A stretch of DNA of 60,455 bases. Origin: an uncultured Alphaproteobacteria bacterium. GTDB lineage: Bacteria; Pseudomonadota; Alphaproteobacteria; Pelagibacterales; Pelagibacteraceae. Both the position numbers and the translations under genes were made by a program. Shown piece after piece: positions 54,752-60,455 of this stretch; position 1 is the stretch's first letter; every line of letters starts with the position of its first letter. The notes beneath the pieces are model-generated. The model was not told where the DNA came from and searched no databases. It was given only the letters and a program-made list of their open reading frames with translations. The stretch is taken from assembly GCA_903869725.1 (NCBI GenBank), contig CAIQAD010000024.1, positions 1-60,455 of the forward strand. The letters run 5' to 3'.

Positions 54752-55582
54752 ATGACAGAACAAGACGTTAATTTAAGCAAAGAGTTTGTAGATAAAATAT
54801 CTCCAAAATCTATCTATAAAAAAAATAAAATTAATGGTGTAAAAAAAATTATCGCAATTGCAAGTGGCAAAGGGGGTGTTGGTAAATCAACGATAGCGGT
54901 CAACATTGCGATAGCTCTTAAAAATTTAAATTATAAGGTTGGCATTTTAGATGCTGATATTTACGGACCATCTATTCCAAAAATGCTAGGAATTTCTGAA
55001 AAGCCAAAAAGTGAAGATGGCAAAACATTAATCCCAATTACTAAATTTGGTCTTCAATGTATGTCCATTGGATTTTTAGTAAGTGAAGACACCCCCATGA
55101 TTTGGAGAGGACCCATGGTCTCAAGTACAATCAAAACTTTCACTAATAATGTCGCTTGGAAAGATCTAGATTATTTGATTATTGATTTGCCTCCAGGAAC
55201 GGGTGATGCGCTTTTAACTTTTGCACAAGAGATAGATATTGATGGCGCTGTAATCATTACAACGCCACAAGAAATAGCAACGCTTGATGTAACGCGCGGA
55301 ATTAAAATGTTTGAAAAAACAAATGTTAAAGTTATTGGAATTATTGAAAATATGAAAAGCTTTATATCAGATGATGGTAAGGAGCATTTTATCTTCGGTA
55401 AAGACGGCGGGCAAAAAATTGCAAAACAATTTAATGTAGATCTATTAGGTCAAATACCAATTGATATTAGATTAAGGGAGCAATCAGATAATGGTGAGCC
55501 TTTTATGGAAGTTAAAAAAGATAATAAAACTTCTCTCATTATTAATGAAATTGCAGAAAAAATTGTAAAAAAAATTAGCTAA
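54752..55582 (+). CDS. mrp: Mrp/ApbC-type Fe-S cluster carrier ATPase
   Basis: A P-loop NTPase of 276 residues in the Mrp/NBP35 group. The deviant Walker A is [20 protein letters not shown] near residue 34. [15 protein letters not shown] and [20 protein letters not shown] follow. The N-terminal MIP18 (DUF59) domain of longer Mrp proteins is missing. The C-x-x-C that bridges the cluster in many members is also absent: the equivalent stretch reads [19 protein letters not shown]. Fe-S transfer is therefore the family role but not assured. The 3' end overlaps convergent thyX by eight bases. Confidence 0.9.
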
Positions 55583-56525
55583 CAATTAAATTTTTCTTAT
55601 CTAACACTTCCATCAATTCATTCCACTCTCTTTTACTAAGACCAGATTCTTCTTGATTAACTTTTTTGCCAGATATTAATTCTTTTATAACGTTCAATCC
55701 TTTGGCAGAAATCTCAGCTGCGCCAACACGATAATCAATAAAAGCTGCATAGGTAATTGGAACCCATTTTTTTACAGTTTCTAACATCTTCTCAGCATAC
55801 ACTCTAATTTCGTACTGCGCGTGACTGTCTGCTCTTAGAAATAAAAAATTAAGAAGATTTAATAAATCTGTTTTCCAATACCACTGTGTATAAGTATTTA
55901 ACGTTAAATTCATTCGTGCAAGCTCTCTTGCAAGTCCAACTTTACTTTCATCTATCTTGCTGCCATCAAATCTTTCATTCAATAATTTCTCATAATTATC
56001 GTATGTTCGTGTGGCATCATCTTTTAAGATTTTAAGTACTTCATCAGCTTGTTTTTGATCTAGAATCTCTCCCTTGCCCTGTCGGTTACTTAATGATTGC
56101 GCTGCAAGTTGTTCTCTTGCTGGTAAATAAAATTCTTTATCTAATATAGAGTACCTAGCTGAATACTCATTAACGTTTGCAGTTCTATGTCTAATCCATT
56201 GTCTTGCTATAAATATTGGAAGCTTGACGTGATACTTTATCTCGCACATCTCAAACGGTGTGCTATGGCGATGTCGCATTAAATATTTGATTAGACCTTC
56301 ATCGGTTGAAACTTTTTTAGTACCTTTACCATAAGAAACTCTCGCTGATTGAACAATTGAAGAATCATCCCCCATATAATCAATCACTCTAATAAACCCG
56401 TGATCTAAAACTGGGATTGCCTCATACAACACTTTTTCTAATTCAGAAGAAGTAACTCTTTTTGTAGTATTTGATTGAGACTGCTGATCTTTAATTTCTT
56501 GTTTTTGTTCTGCAGTTAATTCCAT
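55575..56525 (-). CDS. thyX: Flavin-dependent thymidylate synthase ThyX
   Basis: ThyX makes dTMP from dUMP using methylene-THF and FADH2. The 316-residue protein has the ThyX motif [16 protein letters not shown] (RHR at about 112-114, Ser at 122), preceded by [40 protein letters not shown] and the C-terminal [18 protein letters not shown] complete the fold. The first 30 residues are a charged extension. Long ThyX proteins of about 300 residues are usual in alphaproteobacteria. It is divergent from the tmRNA gene. Confidence 0.97.
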
Positions 56526-56769
56526 GGTAGCTCTATTTTTTTAAAAATCTAAATATCTCTTTAATTAAACGATTCAAAGTCTTATATTATTGATGTTGGT
56601 TTTCCAACTACGACGATAAACGAGATTCGTAATAAACATTGAGGACCAGGGGGCGGTACCCTGCACCTCCACCATTTACAACTTATGGGGGTGAACTAGA
56701 ATCGACTAATGTCTAAAGGCTTTTCTTTCGTCCGGTATTGTACCACCGCAAAGGACTAAAAATATAAAC

Positions 56770-56799
56770 GCAAATGAACAATTTGCTCTTGCTGCCTAA
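56770..56799 (+). other. tmRNA proteolysis-tag reading frame
   Basis: In the coding piece the codons GCA AAT GAA CAA TTT GCT CTT GCT GCC TAA give ANEQFALAA and a stop. The C-terminal ALAA is the degron end recognised by ClpXP in known tags. The resume codon is inferred as GCA at 56770; the frame is open upstream, so a longer tag is possible. Confidence 0.8.
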
Positions 56800-56828
56800 T
56801 TAATTTATTAATTAGAAAAGCACGGTCT

Positions 56829-56853
56829 GGGGCGCCGGGTAACAGAACGCCCC
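56829..56853 (+). terminator. GC-rich hairpin at the tmRNA 3' end
   Basis: GGGGCG at 56829-56834 pairs with CGCCCC at 56848-56853 around a 13-base loop. It could be the 3'-terminal stem of the tmRNA coding piece, or its terminator, although there is no long T-run after it. The right half is echoed by a degenerate copy about 940 bases downstream. Confidence 0.55.
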
Positions 56854-56860
56854 GCTTAAT
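56839..56860. repeat. Left copy of an imperfect 22-base direct repeat (tmRNA end)
   Basis: These 22 bases start GTAACAGAACGCCCC and include the right half of the tmRNA hairpin. They match 57782-57803 at 18 of 22 positions, with an identical CAGAACGCC core. The two copies bracket the FkbM methyltransferase gene. Confidence 0.7.
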
Positions 56861-56870
56861 AATAGATGTA

Positions 56871-57632
56871 ATGATAAATTATTTAAATTTACAACTTAAT
56901 CTAGTATTTACTTTATTCAGATATACTAAATATAAATTTTTTAACTCAAAAAAATTTGATTATATTTTCTTAAATTCAACTAAGAAAAAAAACTTTTTTA
57001 AAATTTTTTCATATTTTAAATTATCTAAATCTCAATTCAGGCAAGATTTGTTTGTATTAAATCAATTAAATTTTAAAAGAAATGGATATTTTGTAGAATT
57101 TGGTGCTACTGATGGATTAAAATACTCAAACACGTATTTGTTAGAAAAAAAATTTTTATGGAAAGGAATATTAGCAGAACCGTCAAAATCGTTTCACAAA
57201 GAATTAACTAAAAATAGAAATTGCGATGTAGAGAAAAAAATTGTCTGGAAAAATTCCAATTCAAAATTAGTATTTTGTGAAACTTATAACCCCACATGGT
57301 CCACTATAAAAAAATATATGAATAAAGATTTTAACAAAAGACACTTAAAAAAAGAATATATGGTAAAATCAATCTCACTAAATAATTTATTAAAAAAATA
57401 TAATGCTCCTAAAATTATTGATTATTTATCTGTTGATACCGAAGGAACTGAACTCGATATTTTAAGTAATTTTAATTTTAATAATTACAAATTTAAAATT
57501 ATTACATGTGAACACAATTATACTCCTGCTAGAGAAAAAATATATACGTTGCTTAAAAACAAAGGATATAAAAGAATACTTTCTAATATATCACAAGTTG
57601 ACGATTGGTATATAAACTCATCCATTGTTTAA
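56871..57632 (+). CDS. FkbM family methyltransferase
   Basis: A 253-residue SAM-dependent methyltransferase of the FkbM group, usually O-methylating sugars or polyketides. The SAM-binding region is GYFVEFGATDGLKYSNTYLL near residue 78. AEPSKSFHKELTKNRNCDVE follows, then the family block IDYLSVDTEGTELDILSNFN near 185. The basic, Lys- and Phe-rich first 60 residues are not conserved. It starts 10 bases after the tmRNA end and is bracketed by tmRNA-end repeats, which suggests insertion as a small cargo. Such genes are common in surface-polysaccharide islands. Confidence 0.85.
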   Translation: MINYLNLQLNLVFTLFRYTKYKFFNSKKFDYIFLNSTKKKNFFKIFSYFKLSKSQFRQDLFVLNQLNFKRNGYFVEFGATDGLKYSNTYLLEKKFLWKGILAEPSKSFHKELTKNRNCDVEKKIVWKNSNSKLVFCETYNPTWSTIKKYMNKDFNKRHLKKEYMVKSISLNNLLKKYNAPKIIDYLSVDTEGTELDILSNFNFNNYKFKIITCEHNYTPAREKIYTLLKNKGYKRILSNISQVDDWYINSSIV

Positions 57633-57781
57633 AATTCTATGCTTAATTTAACTTTTATAATTTTGTAAACAACGAACTTTAAATACAAATTAGAGTCTAA
57701 ATAACGAATATTTTCAACGAAGTGTGAACGAATTTTTTTTAAAATACTATATTTTATGATATTAATTTTTAAATGGAGTTT

Positions 57782-57803
57782 GTAGCAGAACGCCACCTTT
57801 AAT
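57782..57803. repeat. Right copy of the tmRNA-end repeat
   Basis: An imperfect copy (18 of 22) of 56839-56860, reading GTAGCAGAACGCCACC then TTTAAT. It lies immediately before the grxC start, in otherwise AT-rich DNA. The partner half of the tmRNA hairpin is not preserved upstream of this copy, so it is only a tail fragment. Confidence 0.65.
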
Positions 57804-57805
57804 TT

Positions 57806-58066
57806 ATGAAAAAAATTGAAATATACACTACTGATTATTGTCCCTTTTGCGTCAAAGCAAAAAATTTACTAAATAAAAAAAAAGTAGTATTTAAGGAAAT
57901 TAATGTTTCTAACGATGATAATTTAAGAGAAAAAATGACAAAAATGGCAAACGGGGTAAGATCTGTTCCTCAAATTTTTGCAGATGGAATTCATATTGGA
58001 GATTGCGATAAAATACATCAATTAGATAAAGAAAATAAATTAGATTCTCTTTTAGGTCTAAAATAA
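57806..58066 (+). CDS. grxC: Glutaredoxin 3
   Basis: An 86-residue thiol-disulfide reductant. MKKIEIYTTDYCPFCVKAKN carries the C-P-F-C active site at Cys12 and Cys15, and VRSVPQIFADGIHIGDCDKI holds the cis-proline and glutathione-binding residues. It is a single thioredoxin-fold domain of normal length. It starts three bases after the right tmRNA-end repeat and 13 bases before ccdA, so redox functions are clustered. Confidence 0.95.
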   Translation: MKKIEIYTTDYCPFCVKAKNLLNKKKVVFKEINVSNDDNLREKMTKMANGVRSVPQIFADGIHIGDCDKIHQLDKENKLDSLLGLK

Positions 58067-58079
58067 ATAATTACAGCCT

Positions 58080-58796
58080 ATGACATTATCTTTTATGCTA
58101 GCATTTTTTGCTGGTTTAATAAGCTTTGTTTCTCCTTGTGTATTACCTCTTATACCTGGTTATATTTCTTTCATTAGTGGCGTTTCTTTTAATGAATTAA
58201 ATCAAAAGTCAAAAAATTTTATATTAAAAAAATCTTTATTTTTTAGTTTAGGATTTTCTCTAGTTTTCATATTACTAGGAGCAACTGCAACTATTTTGGG
58301 AAGCTTCTTGTTAAAACACATTGCAATACTATCTTACTTGTCAGGATTTTTAATAATTTTTTTTAGTTTATATTTATTAGATTTTGTTAAGATTGATTTT
58401 TTAAGTAAAACTTTTGGAAATTTTAATTTAAAATTTTCTAATAATTTATTTTTTCCATTTGTGGTTGGAGTAGGATTTGGCTTTGGTTGGACTCCTTGCA
58501 TTGGCCCGATATTAGGTTCAATACTTGCAATTGCATCACTTGAAGATTCGATTGCTAAAGGAATATTATTATTAACTTTTTATTCCCTAGGACTTGCTTT
58601 ACCCTTCATTATTTCGAGTTTAATAATTAATTATTTTTTAGTTTTTTCAAAAAATATAAGAAAATATTCAGAAAAAATTAAGAAATTATCAGGAGTTATT
58701 TTGCTTATCACAGGCATATTAATTGTTTTTGGAAAACTTCAAATAATAAGTTTCTTTATTATTAAGTATTTACCAATATTACAAAAATTAGGGTAA
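58080..58796 (+). CDS. ccdA: Cytochrome c biogenesis protein CcdA
   Basis: A 238-residue inner-membrane protein with six hydrophobic segments that passes electrons from thioredoxin to periplasmic thiols, for cytochrome c maturation. Its two reactive cysteines lie in the pseudo-symmetric motifs FVSPCVLPLIPGYISFISG (Cys20) and GFGWTPCIGPILGSILAIA (near 140). It ends one base before the convergent dehydrogenase gene. The adjacent grxC also acts in thiol redox. Confidence 0.93.
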   Translation: MTLSFMLAFFAGLISFVSPCVLPLIPGYISFISGVSFNELNQKSKNFILKKSLFFSLGFSLVFILLGATATILGSFLLKHIAILSYLSGFLIIFFSLYLLDFVKIDFLSKTFGNFNLKFSNNLFFPFVVGVGFGFGWTPCIGPILGSILAIASLEDSIAKGILLLTFYSLGLALPFIISSLIINYFLVFSKNIRKYSEKIKKLSGVILLITGILIVFGKLQIISFFIIKYLPILQKLG

Positions 58797-58797
58797 T

Positions 58798-59754
58798 TTA
58801 ATTTATAGTTTCGATAATTCTTATTGGTTTATTTTGCAAAAAAGCCTCTAAATTTTGAAACATTTGCTCATAAAAAAGCTGATAGTTTTCTTTGGTTACA
58901 TACCCTAAATGTGGAAGTAAAAATGCATTGGCTAAAAATCTTAATTTATGATTCTCTGGTAAAGGCTCAATATCATAAACATCTAAACCCGCACCATGAA
59001 TAGTATTTTTCTCTAAAGCTTCAATTAAATCTAACTCATTAACTATTGGACCTCTAGAAGTATTTATTAATAATGTATGGGATTGCATCATAGAAAACTC
59101 TTTTTTAGTAATTAAGTTTCTAGTTCTGCTACTTAACACTGTATGAATAGTGATAATATCTGACTTTTGCAAAAGTTCCTCTTTAGTAACTGCTAAAACA
59201 TTATTTTCTGTGGCTGTAGATAATTTTAAATTTTCGCTCCAAGCTATAACGTTCATTCCAAAAGCTAATGCAATTTTAGCAACTTGCTTTCCTATTTTTC
59301 CAAGACCGATAATACCAATTGTTTTTCCTTTAAGTTCTAATCCTATAGAGGTTTGCCAATAACCTTGGTACATATTTTCTGTTTCCTCTCTTAAATTACG
59401 AGCCAATCCTAAAATTAGAGCCCAAGTTAATTCTGCGGTTGGATTAGGATTACTTTCTGTTCCACATATCAAAATTTTTCTCTCTTTAGCTGTAGCTTGA
59501 TCAATTGATCTATTAATCATTCCGCTAGTTATAATAATTTTTAAATTTTTTAAATTATTAATAATATTTTTTGTAATTGGCGTTCTTTCTCTCATAATCA
59601 GTAAAGCTTCAAAATCTTTTAATTGTTCAATCACCTGTTGTTCACTTTCAAATGGTTGATTAAATACTTGAAATTGGCAAATTTTTTTAAAATTATCAGT
59701 ATCAATCATATCTAATGAAACATTTTGATAATCATCTAAAATTGCAACTTTCAT
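58798..59754 (-). CDS. D-2-hydroxyacid dehydrogenase
   Basis: A 318-residue NAD-dependent dehydrogenase of the D-isomer 2-hydroxyacid family (phosphoglycerate, glycerate or glyoxylate reductase type). NAD binding is by IGIIGLGKIGKQVAKIALAF near residue 145. The catalytic Arg lies in LLINTSRGPIVNELDLIEAL, Glu in GLDVYDIEPLPENHKL and His in LLPHLGYVTKENY. It has no ACT domain, so SerA is unlikely. The substrate cannot be assigned. It follows the EamA transporter gene by four bases. Confidence 0.9.
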   Translation of the reverse strand: MKVAILDDYQNVSLDMIDTDNFKKICQFQVFNQPFESEQQVIEQLKDFEALLIMRERTPITKNIINNLKNLKIIITSGMINRSIDQATAKERKILICGTESNPNPTAELTWALILGLARNLREETENMYQGYWQTSIGLELKGKTIGIIGLGKIGKQVAKIALAFGMNVIAWSENLKLSTATENNVLAVTKEELLQKSDIITIHTVLSSRTRNLITKKEFSMMQSHTLLINTSRGPIVNELDLIEALEKNTIHGAGLDVYDIEPLPENHKLRFLANAFLLPHLGYVTKENYQLFYEQMFQNLEAFLQNKPIRIIETIN

Positions 59755-59758
59755 TTAA

Positions 59759-60455
59759 TTAAATCTTAAAATTTTCTCTAGATGAAATATATATTCCTAA
59801 AATTATTATTAAAGCTCCGATAATATGGAAATTCATAACAATCTCATGAAAAAAAAATATGGCCATAAATGAACTAAATACGGGCATTAAATGTAAAAAA
59901 ATTCCAGCATGATTTGGTCCAACTATATTAACTGCAGAATTCCAAAATAAATAAGCTCCAAGTCCAGCAAATAAAACAACGTAACTTAATATAAAAAAAA
60001 CAGGTAAATTAATTGGCAGAGTTATTTGTGAGTGTAATTCGAATAGAAATTGTGGAAGCAAAAAAACTAAACCAATAGAAACTATTATCTGTATAAAAGT
60101 TAGACTTTTAAATGGTAATTTATAAGTTTTTAATAAAGTCGAATATGTTGCCCAAGATAACATTGCAATTAACAATAAAAAATCACCTTTATTTATATTT
60201 AGATGAATTAATTTCTGTAAATCAAATTTTGTAATGATAATTACAACACCTAGAAAAGACAGAATAATTCCAATTATTTGATTAATATTAATTTTTTCAG
60301 TTTTAAATAAAAAGGATATAAAAATTATAAAAACTGGAATTGTAGAAATCATTAAAGCTCCATTAATAACCTGCGTAAAATTTAGTGCATAATAAACGAC
60401 CGAATTAAAAATACTAACGCCGGTAATTGATATAGGTATTAAAATATAAAAATAT
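59759..60455 (-). CDS. EamA/DMT family transporter, partial at the right edge
   Basis: The minus-strand frame is open to the window edge. Upstream of the ATG at 60352 the translation continues with VYYALNFTQVINGALMISTI, a normal part of the first EamA domain, so the true start lies beyond the window. The visible part holds about seven hydrophobic segments, with the second EamA repeat beginning near DFLLLIAMLSWATYSTLLK. These inner-membrane transporters move small metabolites; the substrate is unknown. It probably shares an operon with the dehydrogenase. Confidence 0.88.
   Translation of the reverse strand, partial: YFYILIPISITGVSIFNSVVYYALNFTQVINGALMISTIPVFIIFISFLFKTEKININQIIGIILSFLGVVIIITKFDLQKLIHLNINKGDFLLLIAMLSWATYSTLLKTYKLPFKSLTFIQIIVSIGLVFLLPQFLFELHSQITLPINLPVFFILSYVVLFAGLGAYLFWNSAVNIVGPNHAGIFLHLMPVFSSFMAIFFFHEIVMNFHIIGALIIILGIYISSRENFKI

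Follow-up and report, generated by a model that had tools for sequence, protein, structure and literature searches.

A small and decayed element, very probably integrative, at the permuted tmRNA gene (3′ end) in a SAR11 bacterium, one of a family of tmRNA-end cassettes

The window, a stretch of 60,455 nucleotides from an uncultured bacterium of the Pelagibacteraceae, carries close to one end a permuted tmRNA gene (ssrA). On one side of it lies thyX, and on the other a single methyltransferase gene is placed between the tmRNA and grxC. The features of this locus are listed here by position.

55575..56525, minus strand: thyX, the host gene that flanks the tmRNA opposite to the insertion, used as syntenic anchor.
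56556..56856, plus strand: ssrA, permuted alpha-type tmRNA with the tag ANEQFALAA, the intact putative integration target (Rfam RF01849 at 224.1 bits, RF04321 at 137.2 bits; ARAGORN).
56829..56853, plus strand: 25-nt core, GGGGC...GCCCC, located at the 3′ end of the coding piece and forming the putative attL-side core (from the sequence).
56842-56853, plus strand: the 12-mer ACAGAACGCCCC, inside the 25-nt core.
56839..56860, plus strand: left copy of the 22-nt repeat.
56871..57632, plus strand: cargo ORF of 253 aa, FkbM-family methyltransferase (PF05050 at E 2.8e-13; TIGR01444 at 1.4e-07, under its cut-off).
57633..57781, plus strand: non-coding tail of about 150 nt with repeats of TCAACGAAGT, interpreted as the element's right arm.
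57782..57803, plus strand: right, decayed core copy (putative attR side), which lines up with the point where the tmRNA end meets grxC at the empty site of genome G003.
57806..58066, plus strand: grxC (glutaredoxin), the first host gene past the insertion, directly after the tmRNA in G003.

The two copies of the 22-nt repeat, GTAACAGAACGCCCCGCTTAAT on the left and GTAGCAGAACGCCACCTTTAAT on the right, are identical at 18 positions. This score was reached by none of 2000 dinucleotide-preserving shuffles of 57633-57805, and likewise by none of 2000 such shuffles of 56861-58066 and none of 500 of 56861-60455. The right copy is the sole other site, on whichever strand of the 60-kb window, with at least 16 matches to the left copy, and CAGAACGCC is found within the window at positions 56843 and 57786 only. 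The direct repeat described in the earlier note is therefore real, and the two Rfam matches (224 and 137 bits) bear out the permuted tmRNA as its source. Because the tmRNA is permuted, what is repeated is not a tRNA-like end but the coding piece's 3′ end.

The FkbM ORF starts about 15 nt past the tmRNA and is the only ORF between the repeats; no integrase is present in the window's element, which can thus be at most a non-autonomous or decayed unit. The right copy ends 2 nt upstream of grxC, and alignment at grxC places the tmRNA-end/grxC junction of relatives at this same position. The interval had been described as an FkbM gene followed by a non-coding tail. The single ORF is as stated, but the tail is not featureless, as it contains repeats of TCAACGAAGT, similar to arm-type sites, at 57669, 57714 and 57725, with a weaker match at 57770. 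These repeats are modest, with equally many held by 9 of 2000 shuffles. In G004, a genome of the same genus, this tail unit recurs in tandem (CTCAACGAAGTTTCAACGAATG) within the left arm. The left arm in the window is unrecognisable as an arm, and the orientation of the window's FkbM gene is the minority one among cassette cargo. Elsewhere in the window's own genome, a second stretch (G000:C38:2643-3194) shows 67% DNA identity to the FkbM gene.

The same locus was compared across 13 genomes of the genus. The tmRNA was found in seven of them, the window's own included, and was not found in the other six (55-83% completeness). The site next to the tmRNA is occupied in six of the seven genomes (again with the window included), and the cargo differs among them. 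The site in G003 is empty, with ...CAGAACGCCCCACTTTTTT followed by the start codon of grxC. The right copy in the window falls on the junction of this empty site, and the window interval is therefore an insertion with a decayed right core. The right copy also aligns with the cores that G007 and G011 have at this position. The cargo of G007 is an acyltransferase gene, with a second tmRNA 3′ end against grxC; in G011 the gene is a different one and the right core has a single mismatch, and G012 has two units in tandem, with a worn right end. In G002, an FkbM gene 62% identical to that of the window is located at the same place, and after it come a C-terminal fragment that resembles a recombinase, a second core and additional sequence. 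The G004 contig ends soon past the core and does not run into grxC, so this site was counted as occupied.

The earlier note had proposed comparing the tmRNA–grxC interval among relatives. One of these, G003, is indeed without the gene and shows a single intact tmRNA end against grxC, and others (G007, G011 and G012) carry other genes between similar repeats. Neither outcome that it had named as contrary was observed, namely an FkbM gene in syntenic position without a repeat in all relatives, or a right copy that varies freely. Its attL/attR reading gains support from the empty G003 site, to the junction of which the window's right copy is aligned. The proposal of a one-gene island, or the scar of a larger one, is to be corrected in that the insertion does not stand in isolation but represents one decayed unit of a family-wide cassette system.

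The 12-mer ACAGAACGCCCC is found in 252 of 297 genomes, with 504 copies in total and at least two copies in 135 genomes, for a chance expectation of about 0.008 per genome. A control with the reversed pattern gave one match among the matches listed. The copy counts for each genome were transcribed by hand, and the total of 252 agrees with the tally of the scan. A scan of named genomes found at least 120 core loci; among the 80 listed, most are named Pelagibacteraceae and many are AG-/AH- isolates, which we take to be single-cell genomes. Such genomes speak against assembly chimeras.

The usual layout of the core is a co-oriented row of cassettes of 0.2-4 kb. The cassette rows sit behind thyX-tmRNA, for example in G042 with seven exact core copies in 5.1 kb, and copies that share a contig are co-oriented in all 12 of the multi-copy genomes re-examined. 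A closed segment is defined here as one bounded by cores that are intact or have one mismatch. The 61 closed segments in relatives are 241-4174 bp in length (median 1132). Many core copies have lost the GGGGC arm yet keep ACAGAACGCCCC. The core is also located away from any tmRNA, in rows or as single copies (L157, L158, L159, L160, L170, L173 and L195), with five exact copies in about 1.6 kb at L195. Integration at the tmRNA only would leave these rows unexplained, as they occur at tmRNA-less chromosomal places; they suggest secondary sites or transposed arrays.

The cargo is shuffled between the cores. Among 20 homologous cargo pairs, in a comparison of 125 distinct closed segments from 65 loci, neither flank is shared in 15, one flank is shared in 5 and both flanks in none. 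A two-gene cargo (90-98% identical between bodies) is present as unit 1 of L187, L188 and L190, unit 2 of L184 and unit 3 of L186. Within the closed segments there are 96 ORFs with a length of 80 aa or more, and 83 of them are antiparallel to the core. Family scans of 88 of these 96 ORFs, with eight near-duplicates from L186, L187, L188 and L190 omitted, gave a mixed content. The cargo types are FkbM and other methyltransferases, an acyltransferase, a cytosine DNA methylase, an MrcB_N protein and a SelR domain protein, and there are also many small proteins that are secreted-looking by eye. The first cassette of L181 (G087:C3) contains four genes between two cores and is restriction-modification-like by ORF reading; this reading places in it the one C-5 cytosine DNA methylase and the one MrcB_N protein of the cassette set.

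Many segments have their first 67-90 bp and last 80-150 bp in common, with different interiors. A tandem 8-mer with a spacing of 9-13 is found in 20 of 83 left-arm clusters; the corresponding shares are 5% for shuffled arms and 8% for pieces from the middle of segments. The other 63 left-arm representatives are without tandems, and many small segments have no visible arm repeats. This clustering was chosen after a coarser one had lumped 86 of 123 segments together and given a weak result, and the strength of its outcome is to be judged accordingly. With it, the match between the left and right arms of one segment has a mean of 5.90, compared to 2.15 for non-homologous pairs (sd 0.26, maximum 3.26, 5000 permutations). 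Individually, 14 of the 83 left arms beat 98% of other right arms (1.7 expected), and 11 of these are among the 20 with tandem left arms. In the coarser test, with 28 clusters, 144 of 10000 permutations were as high and 3 of the 28 clusters were in the top 5%. The matched arms would make each such segment one recombination unit. By analogy with a lambda-like integrase, the repeats observed here resemble the arm-type sites to which such an enzyme binds.

Only one genome, G223, was found to have a full integrase next to the core. It has an intact tmRNA and core, followed by tandem TGGCGTCATGGTGGCGTCAC (TGGCGTCA repeats) and then by a tyrosine integrase that starts 94 nt past the core (PF00589, E 1.8e-19; phrog_1 integrase, 6.3e-52). 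The element is located on two contigs, C19 and C5. Contig C5 of G223 starts inside its apparent right part, with a right arm, a core and host genes that are the same as those directly after the tmRNA in other genomes (L164), and this right end would be joined to the left one. A locus with its own tmRNA, L535, shares with G223 the right arm, the small gene at the right end, and the left arm as far as the start codon of the integrase. At this codon it diverges from G223, and it contains no integrase. For the window, the absence of an integrase remarked on in the earlier note holds, but the class of enzyme can now be named from the tyrosine integrase beside the same core in G223.

Relics of such enzymes are present in two genomes. 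In G007, an integrase-like N-terminus is located 90 nt past the core, and in G002 a C-terminal fragment lies ahead of the right core. The kinship of the G002 fragment to recombinases is indicated by weak matches (E 1e-4 and 3e-4) to ORFs of G011 and G007 and by a motif reading by eye. This fragment gave no convincing Pfam match (LysM, below the cut-off), a best E of 0.15 in PHROGs, and no match in phages or viral contigs. Three further matches to it (E about 9e-4) are with ORFs that are histidine-kinase-like by reading and were rejected as chance. Among closed segments, 121 of 123 have no integrase match at E 0.01, and the other two have weak fragments only.

Most genomes contain one PF00589 protein, among the matches listed mostly in frames of about 307-327 aa, which is probably Xer. 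The whole assembly of the window's genome (G000, 96.8% complete) has no PF00589 match, unlike most relatives, which may reflect an assembly gap. No core was found in the flanks (about 1.5 kb) of the first 30 PF00589 loci, and among 25 further loci (L410-L434) it adjoins only L433, that of G223. The pattern core-N50-80-ATGGCNACNATH was found in none of 397 genomes, which is uninformative as the gap is too short to cover the 90 nt of the known relic. When relatives of the G223 integrase were sought, one weak locus was obtained, and phage records match it at less than 60% identity only. Two divergent tyrosine recombinase-like ORFs are present in the same genus as the window, G011:C22:97220 (L227, 421 aa) and G007:C7:14094 (L228, 405 aa). 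The latter has no Pfam match at E 0.001 and matches phrog_1 at 1.9e-08; no tRNA is present in the flanks fetched for either.

No virus with both the core and an integrase was found among the 239 viral loci examined (33 of them AT-rich), which came from pattern scans, among the matches listed. Integrase matches in three viral loci (GC 0.43-0.63) were judged to be chance. Eight IMG/VR viral contigs (L092, L102, L109, L110, L118, L127, L141 and L155) carry a whole permuted alpha-type tmRNA with the same 3′ end.

The locus was also assessed against the definitions of known element classes. As in an ssrA-specific island, the target gene in the window is restored on one side, with a displaced fragment of it as direct repeat on the opposite side, and the uninterrupted site is found in a close relative (G003); the window lacks the integrase inside the element. 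The definition of an integrase-less mobilisable unit, with att sites kept and no integrase of its own, describes the relatives (121 of 123 segments), while the right core of the window has 4 mismatches in 22. The integrase of G223 scores 49.4 bits against a cut-off of 265 for the integron integrase IntI (TIGR02249), and by this test the SAR11 system is not an integron. The tycheposons of Prochlorococcus are cargo elements of streamlined marine bacteria, with tyrosine recombinases at RNA genes. Their definition (4-200 kb, tyrosine recombinase, tRNA) does not cover the window's unit, which is about 0.94 kb in size, is located at a tmRNA and has no recombinase. In cyanobacteria, a permuted ssrA with an insertion at its non-tRNA-like 3′ end was reportedly noted by Williams in 2003, under the title 'Traffic at the tmRNA gene'.

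The closest precedent is provided by the ssrA islands of Dehalococcoides (McMurdie et al. 2011, PMC3146451). In the portions of that paper considered here, 20-bp direct repeats of ssrA form the boundaries, over a dozen of them are in tandem downstream of ssrA, and 15 islands without an integration module are listed and suggested to be cis-mobilisable. On this account the two systems have in common the insertion at the tmRNA, the boundaries by end repeats, the tandem units and the lack of an integration module in some units. On the other hand, the Dehalococcoides islands have a CcrB-like serine recombinase and are inserted in the T-loop region of ssrA, whereas the SAR11 case has a tyrosine integrase and the non-tRNA-like 3′ end of a permuted tmRNA; the size of the SAR11 units, mostly 0.2-4 kb, also sets them apart from the islands as portrayed in these portions. 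As in tmRNA islands generally (Islander, PMC4383910, in excerpt), the target is regenerated at one end and a displaced fragment is found at the other. Compared to the islands in that excerpt, the SAR11 case is alphaproteobacterial, in tandem and dominated by integrase-less units.

Rows of small gene units between recombination sites, mostly in one orientation and often without an integrase, are also characteristic of integron arrays and CALINs, as presented in extracts of PMC11389934. Relative to the integrons of these extracts, SAR11 has a core derived from the tmRNA, arms on both sides, many multi-gene units and an integrase far under the IntI cut-off. The additive flexible genomic islands of the Methylophilaceae (PMC10872708, in excerpt) are similar in that repeats of an RNA gene end bound additive units in a streamlined aquatic bacterium. 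They differ in having recurring 20-bp repeats of the tRNA-Lys end in an unrelated host, rather than a permuted tmRNA, and that excerpt contains no account of integrase-less units with matched arms. The same excerpt describes tycheposons as 4-200 kb in size, with a recombinase and tRNA borders; the SAR11 units are smaller and mostly without a recombinase. No account of tmRNA cassettes in SAR11 was found in the open-licence literature, including the available parts of PMC2217521, PMC7318151 and PMC7542561.

Taken from sequence comparison, the feature in the window is very probably a small decayed integrative element at the permuted tmRNA 3′ end of SAR11 (Pelagibacteraceae), belonging to a group of tyrosine-integrase cassettes that are mostly integrase-less and would be moved in trans. 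A tyrosine integrase would recombine the core GGGGCACCTGGCAACAGAACGCCCC at the tmRNA 3′ end (attB) with the same core carried by a circular element (attP), in which it would be flanked by arms that often have tandem repeats similar to arm-type sites. The insertion would leave a whole tmRNA on the left and a free core copy on the right, which would then drift; that of the window would be the copy just ahead of grxC. Loss of the integrase would produce cassettes of one to a few genes that keep their cores and arms and are stacked head to tail in one orientation. These integrase-less cassettes are probably moved in trans by the integrases of intact elements such as that of G223. What the comparison displays directly is the empty and occupied sites, the repeats and their rows, the shuffling of cargo, arms that match in a subset of segments, an intact integrase next to the core and a sibling element that has these arms but no integrase. 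We infer the recombination reaction itself in this way, and with it the exact crossover point, excision, the mobilisation in trans and a vehicle between cells.

Other explanations were considered for the core and for the window. Homologous recombination was favoured for HVR2 by Wilhelm et al. 2007 (PMC2217521), the consulted part of which reports no attC sites near the hypervariable regions. In the present case it would exchange cassettes between conserved flanks (thyX/tmRNA and the downstream genes), with the cores as passengers or remnants of old insertions, and most of the units here have no integrase. This process does not alone create a new core for each unit, co-oriented rows or matched arm repeats, and as the full explanation it is unlikely, although it may reshuffle whole arrays. 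It is still less probable, and indeed very improbable, that the core is a dispersed transcription terminator, a GGGGC stem-loop and T run after many genes, with the rows being rows of terminators. The core does fold as a hairpin (-12.3 and -15.5 kcal/mol), though no better than shuffles (z 0.46 and -1.02), Ts often come after it, and some copies are located behind a gene and away from the tmRNA. But with 83 of 96 enclosed ORFs antiparallel to it, the core is not placed as their terminator, and the loss of the GGGGC arm with retention of the 12-mer in many copies, the shuffling of cargo between cores, the match of arm repeats within a segment, and the integrase and relics at a fixed distance from the core are also against this function.

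For the window alone, the 18/22 repeat could be a coincidental similarity, next to a gene gained by ordinary horizontal transfer, given the mismatches, a left arm that matches no other and an FkbM ORF that begins so close to the tmRNA. The failure of all 2000 shuffles to reach 18 matches, together with the alignment of the right copy to the G003 junction and to the G007 and G011 cores, makes such a coincidence scarcely credible. The decayed integrative element stands as the preferred reading of the window. On a broader scale, the odds appear evenly balanced that SAR11 possesses its own integron-like cassette system, in which rows at the permuted tmRNA, with several arm-site specificities, would be served in trans by rare autonomous integrase elements, and surface and periplasmic genes would be swapped cassette-wise.

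The SAR11 genomes are regarded as streamlined and poor in mobile elements, and the turnover of their variable regions is an open question; no integron signature at the SAR11 hypervariable regions is reported in the consulted part of Wilhelm et al. 2007 (PMC2217521). The core that recurs at a fixed place, together with arms, shuffled cargo and at least one intact integrase, amounts to a mechanism open to direct testing in the single-cell genomes and metagenomes already available, and the core gives a handle for locating the boundaries of each cassette. The locus also adds an alphaproteobacterial case of integration at a non-tRNA-like 3′ end that is made by permutation of the tmRNA gene. If the cassette system is real, the most streamlined of the common sea bacteria would exchange genes for the cell surface and periplasm in steps of a single cassette.
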